A stretch of 64,000 bases of DNA from Amycolatopsis tolypomycina (GTDB taxonomy: Bacteria; Actinomycetota; Actinomycetes; Mycobacteriales; Pseudonocardiaceae): assembly GCF_900105945.1 (NCBI RefSeq), contig NZ_FNSO01000004.1, positions 5,456,001 to 5,520,000 on the forward strand, read 5' to 3'. The stretch's first letter is position 1. Each line of letters starts with the position of its first letter. A program made the translations under genes and the position numbers. The notes below the pieces were generated by a model. It made no database searches. It was given only the letters and a program-made list of their open reading frames with translations, and was not told the DNA's origin. Of the stretch, positions 27,366 to 48,400 are shown one piece after another.

Positions 27366-27411
27366 CGTTCCCTCCCCCTTTCTCGCCCGATCGGCCCGGG
27401 GGAAATATGGC

Positions 27412-27503
27412 GGATGCCGTCAGGTCCCTGTCCGCCCGCTGCGGACCTGGTACCGGGGAAGGTGCACCAGGGCTGTTGAGCGGACAGAGGCCTCACGGCA
27501 TCC
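27412..27503 (-). ncRNA. Structured leader before rsmH (probable mraW RNA motif)
   Basis: In the mraZ-rsmH spacer, 24-base arms at 27412-27435 and 27480-27503 are complementary at 21 of 24 positions (outer GGATGCCGT / ACGGCATCC, inner TGTCCGC / GCGGACA). The 44-nt loop holds CCTGGT / ACCAGG. One arm can also form the smaller hairpin GTCCGC-CCGCT-GCGGAC, so competing folds are possible. A conserved 'mraW RNA' has been described in the 5' leader of this gene in actinobacteria, and position and form agree; I could not compare it with the published consensus. Confidence 0.65.
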
Positions 27504-27579
27504 GGGTGGGCTTCCCCTCCACGCGCGGGCGGCGAACCTCTTCGTCCCCCGACGACGAAGGTGCACCGCGACCGCACGC

Positions 27580-42386: not shown

Positions 42387-43433
42387 ATGCCCGGAATCCT
42401 GACCGGGCAGGCGCTGCGCGCGTTCGCGCACGCCCTGCCCAAGGTCGAACTGCACGTCCACCTGGTCGGCTCGGCGAGCCTGCCGACCGTGCTGGAGCTG
42501 GCCCGGCGCCGCCCGTCCGCCGGGGTCCCCACCGACGAACGCGCGCTCGCGGAGTTCTTCACCTTCCGCGACTTCGCCCACTTCCTCACCGTGTACCTCG
42601 CGGTCACCTCGCTGGTGCGCGATCGCCACGACATCCACACGCTCGTCACAGGGCTGGCGGCGGACCTCGCCGCGCACCACTGCCGCTACGCCGAAGTCAC
42701 CGTGACACCGTACAACCACCTGCTCGACGGCATGTCCGGCGACGACCTGCTGGCCGGGCTCGAAACCGGCCGGGCCCGCGCTGCCGAGCTGGGCGTGGAA
42801 CTGGCCTGGTGTTTCGACATTCCGGGCGAAAAGGGCATCCGAGCCGGGCAGGAGACGCTCGTGTTCGCGCTGCGCGAACGTCCCGACGGCCTGGTCTCGT
42901 TCGGGCTCGGCGGCCCGGAGCTCGGCGTCGGGCGCGCGCAGTTCGAGCCGTTCTTCACGCGGGCGCGGGAAGCCGGGCTGCACAGCGTCCCGCACGCCGG
43001 CGAGACCACCGGCCCGGCCACGATCTGGTCGGCGCTGCACGACCTCGGCGCCGAGCGGATCGGCCACGGCACCAGCTGCGCGGCCGACCCGGCGCTGCTC
43101 GAACACCTTGCGGCACAACGGATCCCGCTCGAAGTGTGCCCGACGTCGAACGTGCGGACCGGCCAGGTCGCGGACCTCGCGGCACACCCGGTGCGCCGCA
43201 TGCTGGACCACGGCGTCGTGGTGACGCTCAACACCGACGACCCGCCGATGTTCGGTGCCACGCTCACCGGCGAGTACGTCGCCGTCGCCGAGACCCTGGG
43301 CCTCACCGCGGCCGAGCTGGCCCGGCTCGCGGAGAACGCCGTCGACGCCTCCTTCCTTGACGAGCAGCGGAAAGCCGGTCTGCGGAGTGAGATCCGGGAA
43401 ATGACGTTGCACGGCACGGCCGACTTCACCTAG
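42387..43433 (+). CDS. Adenosine deaminase-family enzyme
   Basis: This 348-residue TIM-barrel metal enzyme has the zinc motif ELHVHLVGS (His23, His25), GLHSVPHAGETTGP with the catalytic His-Glu pair, IGHGTSC, CPTSNVRTG and VTLNTDDPPMF with the metal-binding Asp. It deaminates adenosine or a related nucleoside such as aminodeoxyfutalosine; sequence alone does not decide. CAGGGAGCTC lies before ATG 42387. A structured RNA gene follows the stop immediately. Confidence 0.92.
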   Translation: MPGILTGQALRAFAHALPKVELHVHLVGSASLPTVLELARRRPSAGVPTDERALAEFFTFRDFAHFLTVYLAVTSLVRDRHDIHTLVTGLAADLAAHHCRYAEVTVTPYNHLLDGMSGDDLLAGLETGRARAAELGVELAWCFDIPGEKGIRAGQETLVFALRERPDGLVSFGLGGPELGVGRAQFEPFFTRAREAGLHSVPHAGETTGPATIWSALHDLGAERIGHGTSCAADPALLEHLAAQRIPLEVCPTSNVRTGQVADLAAHPVRRMLDHGVVVTLNTDDPPMFGATLTGEYVAVAETLGLTAAELARLAENAVDASFLDEQRKAGLRSEIREMTLHGTADFT

Positions 43434-43700
43434 CGTGGCAGTACACGAGAAAGGAGGTGGTCCTAAGTTGTATTCCAACAGGACTCGTGAGGTGGCTGTC
43501 CGCTAGCGGATGGCACGTGAAGGACTTTGAGCAGCGATACAACCGAGCCACCTTCGGCTCATCGCCTGCTTCACGTGGTGCCTGATAGCGAATACCAGGC
43601 AGCCACCGTGCCCCCGGGGCTCCCGAGCACCAGTCCGGCTCGGGCTCAGGCGTTTGACGGCGCTTGAGAGCAACCCCGGGGGTCCCTTTATTTCGCTCAT
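43434..43700 (+). ncRNA. Structured RNA with 12-codon ORF and terminator
   Basis: A TAGCGT box at the deaminase stop could be its -10. AGAAAGGAGGTGGTCC (43448-43463) is complementary to nearly all of the 16S rRNA 3' tail. It precedes a 12-codon ORF. Nested stems follow: GGTGGCTG 43491-43498 with CAGCCACC 43600-43607; CACGTGAAG 43514-43522 with CTTCACGTG 43569-43577; GCAGCGAT 43531-43538 with ATCGCCTGC 43561-43569; GAGCC with GGCTC inside. A second module has CCCGAGC/GCTCGGG inside CCCCCGGGG (43611-43619) / CCCCGGGGG (43674-43682), followed by CCCTTTATTT, a terminator. I do not recognise the class; it may match a known one. Confidence 0.65.
43468..43506 (+). CDS. 12-codon ORF behind full-length Shine-Dalgarno
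   Basis: TTG 43468 to TAG 43504-43506 encodes MYSNRTREVAVR. It starts 4 nt after a 16-nt sequence matching the complement of the entire 16S rRNA 3' tail. Its end overlaps the outer stem of the RNA (43491-43498), so ribosomes on it would open that stem. This suggests a translation-sensing element. The peptide itself has no domain. Confidence 0.5.
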   Translation: MYSNRTREVAVR

Positions 43701-43800: not shown

Positions 43801-44361
43801 ATGCTCAGGCCCGACTACCCGATCACCACGGCCCGGCTGATCCTGCGCCCGTTCACGCCCGGCGACCTCGACGCGTTGAACTCCTTCCAGTCCCGCGCCG
43901 ACGTCGCCCGCTACCTGTACTGGGGGCCGCGCAGCCGCGCCGAGTCGGCGGCCGCGCTCGCGAAGCGCGTGCATAGCTCGACGTTGACGAAGGAAGGGCA
44001 GTTCCTGGCCGTGGCGGTCGAACTGGCCGCGACCGGCCGGCTGATCGGCGACCTGAACCTCGAGTGGCTGAGCGCCGAACACCGCCAGGGCGAGATCGGG
44101 TTCGTCTTCCACCCCGACCACCACGGCAAGGGCCTGGCCGCCGAGGCGACCACCGAGCTGCTGCGTCTGGGCTTCGAAGACCTGGGGCTGCACCGCATCA
44201 TCGGCCGCTGCGACGGCCGGAACACCGCGTCCGCCGCGCTCATGGAACGCCTCGGCATGCGCCGGGAGGCGCACCTCAAGGAAAACGAGATCGTCAAGGG
44301 CGAGTGGACCGACGAGCTGATCTACGCGATGCTCGAGGACGAGTGGAAGGACCGCCCTTAG
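43801..44361 (+). CDS. GNAT acetyltransferase (RimJ/RimL type)
   Basis: This 186-residue acetyltransferase has ITTARLILRPFTPGDLDALNSF at the start, GEIGFVFHPDHHGKGLAAEATTELLRLGF with the acetyl-CoA pyrophosphate loop (HHGKGLAAEA, about residue 105) and RCDGRNTASAALMERLGMRREAHL, as in ribosomal-protein and amino-terminal acetyltransferases. The acceptor is unknown. TAGCCT (43789-43794) lies 6 nt from ATG 43801 and GGAGGC fills the gap, so it could be leaderless. It is separated from the RNA gene upstream by that gene's terminator. Confidence 0.9.
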   Translation: MLRPDYPITTARLILRPFTPGDLDALNSFQSRADVARYLYWGPRSRAESAAALAKRVHSSTLTKEGQFLAVAVELAATGRLIGDLNLEWLSAEHRQGEIGFVFHPDHHGKGLAAEATTELLRLGFEDLGLHRIIGRCDGRNTASAALMERLGMRREAHLKENEIVKGEWTDELIYAMLEDEWKDRP

Positions 44362-44386: not shown

Positions 44387-44427
44387 GCTCGGGTAGCGGC
44401 GCGCGGGTGGTTTGGCAGCATAGGGGC

Positions 44428-45459
44428 GTGTTCTTCGACAAGATCGTCCGCCCGGCGCTGTACCGGCTGTCCGCCCACGACCCCGAGCTGGTGCACGAGC
44501 GCACGATCGCCGTCCTCGCTCGGCTCGGCAGGTTCGCCCCCCGCGGCGTTCTGCGTGTCGACGACCCGGCGACCCTGCTGGGTCTGCGGTTCCCCAACCG
44601 CGTCGGCCTGGCCGCCGGGATGGACAAGAACGGCCGCGCGCTGCCGGCGTGGGCCGCGCTCGGCTTCGGGTTCGTCGAGGTCGGCACCGTGACGCGGCTG
44701 GCCCAGCCGGGCAACCCGAAGCCGCGGCTGTTCACCCTGCCCGCCAGCGACGCGATCATCAACCGCATGGGCTTCAACAACGACGGCGCTTCGGCGCTCG
44801 CGGCGAAGCTCGCCCGCGACGGGAAACCGGGTGTGCCGCTGGGGATCAGCATCGGCAAGTCGAAGGTGACGCCGCTCGAAGACGCCGTCGAAGACTACCG
44901 GTTCTCGCTGCGCGCGCTCCACCCGTACGCGGACTACTTCGCGATCAACGTCAGCTCGCCGAACACCCCGGGGCTGCGGCAGCTGCAGGACCGCACGGCG
45001 TTGGCCGAACTGCTCGGCGAGCTGCGTTCGACGTCGCTCGAGCTCGCCGGCGCGAAGAATCCGACGCCGGTGCTGGTGAAGGTCGCCCCCGACCTCACCG
45101 ACGACGCGCTGGCCGAGCTGCTGGAAGTCGCGCTCGAGCACGGCGTCGCCGGGATCATCGCCACGAACACGACGTTGTCCCGCGACGGCGTCGCCGCAGC
45201 GGAAAGCGGCCTGGCCGGACAGGCGGGAGGACTGTCCGGCCGGCCGCTGACCACCCGCGCGGCCGAGGTCGTGCGGTTCGTGCACGACCACACCGGCGGG
45301 CGCCTGCCGATCATCGGCGTCGGCGGCATCACGGGCCCGGACGACGCCATCCGGCTCGTCGACGCCGGCGCGTCGCTCGTACAGCTCTACACGGGCTTCG
45401 CGTTGCACGGGCCGGGCCTGGTGCGCCGCGTCAGCCGGGGTCTCGCGGCCCGGCGGTAG
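44428..45459 (+). CDS. pyrD: Dihydroorotate dehydrogenase (quinone), class 2
   Basis: This 343-residue flavoprotein oxidises dihydroorotate to orotate in pyrimidine synthesis, passing electrons to membrane quinone. Its motifs are [13 protein letters not shown] at the membrane-associated N-terminus, [58 protein letters not shown] with the catalytic Ser of class 2, and [21 protein letters not shown] binding FMN. GTG 44428 matches the family start; the frame is open slightly further upstream. Its end overlaps the convergent amidase-like gene by 29 bp. Confidence 0.96.
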
Positions 45460-47167: not shown

Positions 47168-47231
47168 TGGAGTTGCCCCGTGGGGCCGGACACCTTGATT
47201 CCAGACAGTGGTCTGGAGGGAGGATGTCCTG

Positions 47232-47522
47232 ATGTCTTCCAGGTCGAAATATCCGGAGCAGTTCCGACGGGACGCGGTCGAGCTGGTCAACTCGAGTGAC
47301 CGTCCGTTGCGGCAGATCGCCCGCGAACTAGGGGTCAACCACGAGACCCTGCGGGCGTGGGTCAACACCGCCAAGCAGGCCGCCGAGGCCGGGCCGCCGG
47401 CAGAAGACCCGGCGGAGGCCCTGGAGGTGACGCGGTTGCGGAAGCAGGTCGCTGAGCTGCAGAAAGAGAAGGAGATCCTGCGGAAAGCGGCCGCCTATTT
47501 TGCGCGCGAGATGGATCGATGA
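47232..47522 (+). CDS. IS3-family transposase OrfA
   Basis: This 96-residue protein has a helix-turn-helix (YPEQFRRDAVELVNSSDRPLRQIARELGVNHETLRAW, DNA end recognition) and a C-terminal leucine-zipper-like coil (LEVTRLRKQVAELQKEKEILRKAAAYFAREM). ATG 47232 follows GGAGGGAGGATG. It ends in ATGA overlap with orfB; IS3 elements usually make the active OrfAB fusion by frameshifting near this junction. Confidence 0.95.
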   Translation: MSSRSKYPEQFRRDAVELVNSSDRPLRQIARELGVNHETLRAWVNTAKQAAEAGPPAEDPAEALEVTRLRKQVAELQKEKEILRKAAAYFAREMDR

Positions 47523-48400
47523 CCTACCGCTACCGGTTCATCTCCGAACACCGCGCCATCTACGGCGTCAAGCGGTTGTGCCAGGTCCTGGGCCTGCGCC
47601 GGCAAGGCTTCCACGAATGGGTCGCCGCCGAAGCAGCCCGGATCCGCCGGGCGGAGGCCGAGGCCGAGCTGGTCAGGCTGATCACCGAGATCCATGCCGA
47701 ACACCAGGGTGCCTACGGCGTCCCCCGTGTCACCGCCGAACTGCACCGCCGCGGGATCGTGGTGAACCACAAGCGGGTCGAGCGGCTCATGCGCGCACAC
47801 GGCCTGGCCGGGATCACCCGCCGCAAACGCCGCACCACCACCCGGCCTGCGGCCGGCCCGGTCACCCCAGCACAGGACCTGATCCGCCGCGACTTCACCG
47901 CCGAGAAACCCGGGACACGGCTGGTCGGGGACATCACCTGCCTGCCCACCTTCGAGGGCTGGCTCTACCTGGCCACCGTCATCGACCTGCACACCCGGGA
48001 GGTCGTCGGTCACGCCATGGCCGACCACATGCGCACCGACCTGGTCTGCGACGCCATCGACCTGGCCACCGCCCGCGGTCTTGTCCAGCCCGATGCGGTG
48101 TTTCACAGCGACCGCGGCGTCCAATACACGAGCAGCCAGTTCCGGGCCGCCCTCGCCGAGCACCGGATCCGCCCGTCGGTCGGGCGGGTGGGGTCCTGCT
48201 ACGACAACGCCGTCGCCGAAGCCTTCTTCGCCACATTGAAGACCGAAATCGGTGTCTCGATCTGGCGCACCCGCGCCGAGGCGCGCCAGGACGTGTTCAC
48301 CTGGCTGCGCTACTACAACCACAACCGGCTGCACTCAACGGTCGGGCACAACACCCCAGCCGAAGCCCGAACCAGCTACCCTCAGGCCCTGGCTGCCTGA
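47519..48400 (+). CDS. IS3-family transposase OrfB (DDE integrase core)
   Basis: This 293-residue protein has an HTH_21-like region (YGVPRVTAELHRRGIVVNHKRVERLM) and the rve catalytic core with Asp138 (VGDITCLPT), Asp198 (FHSDRGVQYTS) and Glu234 (AVAEAFFATLKTE). The 35-residue spacing of the last two is the DD(35)E pattern of IS3. The tail has YYNHNRLHSTVGHNTPAE, also typical. The reading frame is intact. Confidence 0.96.
   Translation: MTYRYRFISEHRAIYGVKRLCQVLGLRRQGFHEWVAAEAARIRRAEAEAELVRLITEIHAEHQGAYGVPRVTAELHRRGIVVNHKRVERLMRAHGLAGITRRKRRTTTRPAAGPVTPAQDLIRRDFTAEKPGTRLVGDITCLPTFEGWLYLATVIDLHTREVVGHAMADHMRTDLVCDAIDLATARGLVQPDAVFHSDRGVQYTSSQFRAALAEHRIRPSVGRVGSCYDNAVAEAFFATLKTEIGVSIWRTRAEARQDVFTWLRYYNHNRLHSTVGHNTPAEARTSYPQALAA

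Follow-up and report, generated by a model that had tools for sequence, protein, structure and literature searches.

Closest described systems

RF02471 (Ms_IGR-5) is known as an actinobacterial small RNA, typed 'Gene; sRNA', without a catalogued function. The name Ms_IGR-5 comes from Mycobacterium smegmatis, probably from a study of its small RNAs. The host phylum of the family includes antibiotic producers and major pathogens. The Rfam model pairs the Shine-Dalgarno (SD) segment with a part of codons 9-11 of the ORF described below, beside and within a strand of the helix termed P1 here, leaves CAGUCACC unpaired and contains neither P1 nor a pseudoknot. Papers cited here by PMC number report transcript support for the family in Streptomyces lividans (PMC8079986), S. 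avermitilis (PMC8780764) and M. smegmatis (PMC10454040), together with significant ribosome reads on MS_IGR-5 in Ribo-seq of M. abscessus and M. smegmatis (PMC4974804), with the caution in the latter paper that noncoding RNAs can also be protected and that the large majority of characterized Escherichia coli ncRNAs show footprints. The ORF, the ribosomal tail match and the pseudoknot of the family were not met in the text reached by full-text literature searches; the original M. smegmatis description might mention some of them.

The nearest mechanism, by analogy, may be that of the start-proximal extended SD helices of Staphylococcus aureus. At the infC, ccpN and cvfC1 sites presented in PMC13009471 the SD helix is likewise extended toward the start, with longer spacing and weak starts. 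Those sites belong to ordinary genes, whereas the RNA studied here is an autonomous small RNA with possible pairing to the whole 16S rRNA tail and with an ORF that folds on itself. 6S RNA and Ms1 provide a works-like analogy of a small RNA engaging a central machine, as outlined in PMC9130861; they bind RNA polymerase whereas the putative target here is the 30S subunit, and no sequence relation is claimed. Leader-peptide attenuators (trp, leu, ilv) likewise carry a short ORF whose translation chooses between folds. In contrast to them, the present RNA has neither a conserved downstream gene nor a run of regulatory codons, and it ends in its own terminator-like hairpin. To RF02471 the comparison adds a revised fold, an ORF that is conserved and, in the copies compared, nearly complete complementarity to the 16S tail.

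Identity, transcript and genomic setting

The window, a 64,000-nt stretch of the Amycolatopsis tolypomycina genome, contains a full-length RF02471 match (Infernal/Rfam) at 43443-43691 on the + strand, covering model positions 1-184 of 184 with 83.7 bits (E 4.9e-17), above the gathering score of 45. It is the sole match in the 10.36 Mb genome. This full-length match, together with the shared P2 region and terminator, places the RNA in the same family and supplies the name that the initial annotation could not give when it suspected a described actinobacterial RNA. Upstream of the RNA lies an adenosine deaminase gene (42387-43433, PF00962); downstream come genes for a GNAT acetyltransferase (43801-44361, PF13302) and then a dihydroorotate dehydrogenase (44407-45459). 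The transcription signals of the RNA are the following.

43407-43412, + strand: -35-like hexamer TTGCAC, 18 nt before the -10 box
43431-43436, + strand: -10-like box TAGCGT, its TAG being also the adenosine deaminase stop codon
43443, + strand: predicted transcription start, placed from its position 7 nt past the -10 box, at the A of ACAC
43443-43694, + strand: whole RNA, about 250 nt (RF02471 match 43443-43691)

The -10-like box had been noted at the deaminase stop and indeed overlaps it; the -35-like hexamer, the RF02471 identity and a pseudoknot (43481-43485/43632-43636) are additions to that first description.

Homologous loci were assembled to a total of 324 including the window, from 204 covariance-model (CM) matches and 120 matches to a pattern with GGAGGTGRTCY and GGACDYGTGAGGTGRCTG as obligatory parts. 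Among them 315 are distinct (window included), and the CM-derived subset counts 201. A further 78 loci from outside the class comprise 18 RF02471 matches and 60 chosen by motif from a pattern search of the phylum. Loci preselected by motif are thus 120/324 and 60/78, respectively; the rest were located by a tolerant motif or by the best match to 16S.

The promoter-like signals recur at these loci. TANNNT is found near the expected place in 201/201 CM-derived homologues, and a TTG lies 15-20 nt from it in 161/201, the spacing being 17-18 in 159. ACAC at the predicted start is conserved at 81-87% per base. An A-rich tract precedes the -35 in these homologues, and 54-52 nt before GGAGG the three places have 62-80% A in the 201 CM-derived loci. 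Conserved A-tracts of this kind occur in strong promoters that carry an UP element.

Across the 324 loci, the closest gene downstream that has relatives at other loci shares the strand of the RNA in 129 cases and is on the opposite strand in 148, with 47 cases unassigned. A recount with a codon-composition filter, prompted by a large neighbour cluster that resembled an antisense frame, gave 119, 156 and 49. The strand of this cluster (27 loci) is doubtful, and moving it changes the first count to 146 same and 129 opposite. These downstream genes belong to many families, one of which, found on the opposite strand at 57 loci, encodes a THAP4-like heme-binding protein (Pfam, one representative). 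Such varied neighbours on either strand indicate an autonomous transcript rather than a leader.

RF02471 is present in 79/100 sampled genomes of the family Pseudonocardiaceae, 71/81 of the order, 131/197 of the class and 27/119 of the phylum. These absences are soft, because the search filters were strict and the model fits distant members poorly; in the phylum sample, 18 of the 27 positive genomes lie outside the class and the gathering score is reached in 5 of these 18. A plain DNA pattern matched 108/296 phylum genomes, in part by chance as the control columns were not empty. By eye, genomes below about 2 Mb in the phylum sample seldom match the pattern, as if the RNA were lost with genome reduction. 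One genome of the class sample (G251), with a listed contamination of 5%, has two RF02471 matches where the other listed positives have one.

Complementarity to the 16S rRNA 3' tail

43448-43463, + strand: AGAAAGGAGGTGGTCC, complementary to the 16S tail at 16/16 positions, one of them G-U

All three 16S genes of the genome end in GGATCACCTCCTTTCT, which we take to be the mature 16S 3' end, and AGAAAGGAGGTGGTCC pairs with the entire tail 5'-GGATCACCTCCTTTCT-3'. The 16-nt match with one G-U that was proposed from the sequence is confirmed, and it is conserved across the 315 loci. Sites pairable at 16/16 positions, wobble allowed, number four in the 10.36 Mb genome, namely the three 16S 3' ends and the window RNA, against 0 in the backward control. 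Other genomes of the class have further 16/16 sites as well as control matches, at most six of the latter on one strand, in one of 59 genomes. The predicted duplex of the RNA with the 16S tail amounts to -27.8 kcal/mol versus -8.7 for GGAGG alone.

Pairing extends over 16/16 positions in 283 of the 315 distinct loci and 15/16 in the remaining 32; for the CM-derived subset the figures are 186/201 and 15/201. The RNA base facing a 16S C is G in 315/315 loci at all six places, one of these invariant G residues standing among neighbours that vary between A and G, and the base facing a 16S A (two places) is T in 315/315. Opposite a 16S U the RNA has A or G, other than at the outermost place in 28 loci and at three further places in one locus each, and opposite a 16S G it has C or T with a single exception. 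The pairing ends at the last base of the tail, as 314/315 loci have G, A or C at the next position of the RNA, which the start site may also constrain. Outside the class, 16 positions pair in 73/78 loci and 15 in 5/78; the bases 5' of GGAGG, left free in the search pattern, are all compatible except the first base in the five 15-position loci. By this comparison, the 5' end of the RNA, a few nucleotides past the predicted start, is shown to be under selection for pairing with the whole 16S tail.

A conserved short ORF

43468-43506, + strand: 12-codon ORF with a TTG start and a TAG stop (43504-43506), product LYSNRTREVAVR (residue 1 Met if initiated)

An ORF finder allowing 9-15 codons and demanding an in-frame GAG detects an NTG-started ORF with an in-frame stop in 315/315 distinct loci. 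The start is TTG in 201, ATG in 70 and GTG in 44 of them, and it lies 10-13 nt from GGAGG. TTG, the predominant codon here, makes up 3.9% of annotated starts in S. lividans in the data quoted from PMC8079986. ORF length is 12 codons at 298 loci, 13 at 15, and 11 and 14 at one each, while the stop codons exchange among TAG (275), TGA (25) and TAA (15). Distinct loci anchored on GGAC (n=231) have TTG, ATG or GTG exactly 13 nt upstream in 230 cases, the lone exception having an 11-codon in-frame ORF, and a stop at a fixed place in all 231 (TAG 196, TGA 22, TAA 13).

The encoded peptide behaves differently. Codons 2-4 vary freely, codon 5 is limited to R, W and G, and the residue at codon 6 changes to M in loci with GGATG instead of GGAC. 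Codons 8-9 (GAG GTG) are invariant at all three codon positions among the 184 twelve-codon ORFs of the CM set, so that what is kept there is RNA sequence, as an RNA constraint would do. Codon tables of the ORF contain no run of one regulatory codon. Peptide conservation, which had been put forward as a check of the ORF, therefore gives a split answer: start, frame and stop are kept in 315/315 loci and the peptide sequence varies. It is the act of translation that is conserved.

Outside the class, a script finds an ORF of 10-15 codons in 75/78 loci, starting with TTG (31), ATG (23), CTG (6), ATC (5), GTG (4), ATT (4), ACG (1) or ATA (1); the near-cognate starts are weaker evidence because several codons were allowed. 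The remaining 3/78 show, by eye, a 15-codon TTG ORF at closer spacing. In 7/78 loci the conserved GGAGGTGG falls in a different reading frame of the ORF, which still ends in an in-frame stop. An overlapping frame opened by the GTG at 43487 was rejected, since this GTG is found in 297/315 loci but the length of the frame is not conserved.

A revised fold built on the ORF

The segment 43443-43695 has a minimum free energy of -120.2 kcal/mol (z -4.79), a value as low being reached in 0/200 shuffles. With its own promoter-like and terminator-like signals, this bears out the proposal of a self-contained structured RNA. The elements of the fold are listed below.

43481-43485, + strand: pseudoknot 5' strand GGACT, within ORF codons 5-6 (covariation)
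43491-43498, + strand: helix P1 5' strand GGTGGCTG, ORF codons 8-11 (covariation and minimum-energy fold)
43501-43505, + strand: helix P2 5' strand CGCTA, spanning codon 12 and two bases of the stop codon, its first and second (covariation; in the minimum-energy fold)
43507-43585, + strand: variable stem or stems, differing in length and sequence among homologues
43586-43590, + strand: helix P2 3' strand TAGCG (covariation)
43591-43599, + strand: AATACCAGG, unpaired but conserved, forming the 3' side of the internal loop between P1 and P2 (conservation)
43600-43607, + strand: helix P1 3' strand CAGCCACC (covariation and minimum-energy fold)
43611-43682, + strand: terminator hairpin with outer stem CCCCCGGGG/CCCCGGGGG and two inner hairpins, followed by TCCCTTTATTTC
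43632-43636, + strand: AGTCC, the 3' strand of the pseudoknot, looped out by the terminator's first inner hairpin (43622-43644; covariation)

The overlap of the end of the ORF with the outer stem, seen from the sequence alone, corresponds to the 5' strand of P1, and the expected terminator is found as the stem reaching 43682 and the TCCCTTTATTTC tract after it.

Covariation was assessed in an alignment of 146 sequences picked for diversity from the CM set and aligned by MAFFT from sequence only; double-change cells count sequences, not independent events. P1 has 34 such cells, 300 shuffles giving 8 at most; 96.8% of its cells are paired, and its score is weak in 6/315 loci. P2 has 26 against a shuffle maximum of 17, with 80.3% paired and a weak fifth pair (44/136). 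The double changes that had been sought in the stems are thus present in both. For the pseudoknot, GGACN/N'GTCC, 55 double-change cells compare with a shuffle maximum of 39 and 93.7% of cells pair, the fifth pair holding in only 104/146. A first count of the pseudoknot used 219 of 231 rows, 12 having been dropped for lack of a clear P1 3' strand or GTCC and 64 having more than one GTCC; the variable base was paired in 154/219.

Exchanges at individual loci add to this picture. The seven GGATG loci have the exact partner CATCC in five cases (L079, L250, L251, L257, L290) and pair by wobble with CGTCC in two; by eye, GGAACG is accompanied by CGTTCC in L304 and CGACC by GGTCG in L329. A GTC[CG] filter failed to pick up a pseudoknot partner at many of the 78 loci outside the class, where one group uses GGTCAC instead: an ORF with GTGACC is accompanied by downstream GGTCAC in 15/16 loci, versus 1/62 of the others. 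The design is met again in these 78 loci, 60 of them chosen by motif. At two places of the AATACCAGG loop side, A occurs in 286/309 and C in 281/309.

A hairpin GGTCC/GGACN that would sequester the SD is part of the minimum-energy fold, yet it has 2 double-change cells and is 88.5% paired versus a shuffle mean of 88.3%; it shows no covariation and is not supported. Rfam helix 1, in which the SD segment pairs with GCTGTC, is pairable in 94.5% with 3 double-change cells, a count taken without a shuffle baseline, and it competes with P1 (3 versus 34). Placing the 3' strand of P1 by the terminator alone agreed with a complementarity anchor in 204/292 rows and disagreed in 84; it gave 2022 paired cells versus a shuffle maximum of 1985 and was replaced by the 146-row alignment. 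P2 and the terminator hairpin with its GUCC loop are present in the window RNA as in RF02471, and P1 and the pseudoknot appear from their covariation as two long-range pairings missing from the Rfam structure. The comparison shows that bases of the ORF itself form strands of P1, P2 and the pseudoknot. Translation of the ORF must open both P1 and the pseudoknot.

Possible function

The anatomy of this RNA is well supported; its function we infer. Tail complementarity, ORF and fold are all, as shown by comparison among loci, under selection. A match to nearly the whole tail, combined with a 10-15-codon ORF that competes with the fold, suggests that the RNA probably senses or occupies ribosomes, close to the sensing or titration that the initial annotation had proposed. 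We favour the hypothesis of an autonomous mini-mRNA that would dock 30S subunits and thereby read out or titrate initiation, to which we give a probability of about one half. Strong docking upstream of a weak start, mostly TTG, would make the RNA report or occupy 30S subunits: the subunit would dock very stably yet start slowly. The initiating ribosome would cover the pseudoknot strand and the translating ribosome would open P1 and P2, so that the RNA might switch, depending on the capacity for initiation, between two states, one folded and free of ribosomes, the other opened and ribosome-bound. It would then act in trans, whether by retaining 30S subunits or through binding of the folded state to something else, for which the conserved AAUACCAGG loop is a candidate site. 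If docking is real, the RNA would be to the ribosome a dedicated RNA as 6S RNA is to RNA polymerase; even without docking, the ORF, P1 and the pseudoknot offer exact changes for testing the family.

In a bolder and rather improbable extension, the family would mask the anti-Shine-Dalgarno sequence throughout the phylum. Under slow initiation the RNA would occupy the 16S tails of free 30S subunits, so that SD-led mRNAs would be suppressed and leaderless ones spared; the latter are common in these bacteria, making up 17% of the primary start sites of S. lividans as given in PMC8079986. If true, the family would offer a counterpart, made of RNA and reversible, to the MazF-cut 'stress ribosomes' that PMC4633059 describes from E. 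coli, and would be a ribosomal analogue of 6S RNA.

The strongest competitor to 30S docking, somewhat unlikely in our view, is a dual-function base-pairing sRNA, of the known kind of sRNAs doubling as mRNAs discussed in PMC10339803. Its folded body would pair with mRNAs and translation of the ORF would merely switch or destabilise it, making the ribosome the signal and not the target. The mutual exclusion of ORF translation and fold, the conserved unpaired AAUACCAGG loop and an ORF that comparative evidence and published ribosome reads indicate to be translated all agree with this view, but taken alone it leaves the complementarity to the entire 16S tail unexplained.

Clearly less probable is an ordinary tiny peptide gene, in which the extended SD would make up for a weak start and for structure within the coding region, with the peptide as the product. 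Start, frame and stop are conserved, and extended SDs with weak starts are described in S. aureus, where in the account of PMC13009471 they also serve ordinary regulated initiation. It sits badly with the free variation of codons 2-4, the choice of R, W or G at codon 5, the M at codon 6 in GGATG loci, the shift of GGAGGTGG to another frame in out-of-class loci and the retention of codons 8-9 as RNA sequence.

That the RNA acts in cis on the next gene, as a leader or attenuator, is very unlikely. This reading is compatible with the window, where the GNAT acetyltransferase and dihydroorotate dehydrogenase genes share the strand of the RNA, but across the 324 loci the neighbours are of many families and split 129 to 148 between strands, with 47 unassigned; the ORF has no regulatory codon run and a strong terminator-like hairpin intervenes. 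Of the earlier idea of a leader whose fold depends on translation, the part that stands is that an ORF strand belongs to the fold; the leader itself does not. Lastly, purine-rich tracts in GC-rich DNA are often SD-like and a few chance 16/16 sites exist in other genomes of the class, but the window site is unique in its genome outside the 16S genes with a control of 0, and a chance origin of match and ORF is refuted because both are conserved in 315 loci and in 78 more.

Other features of the window

Two further features were noticed in the window.

27402-27509, - strand: mraW RNA (RF01746), matched in Rfam with 67 bits (gathering score 50)
47208-48400, + strand: a short ORF and, after it, a transposase-like protein (domains HTH_21 and rve)

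The layout of the second is presumably that of an IS3-like element.
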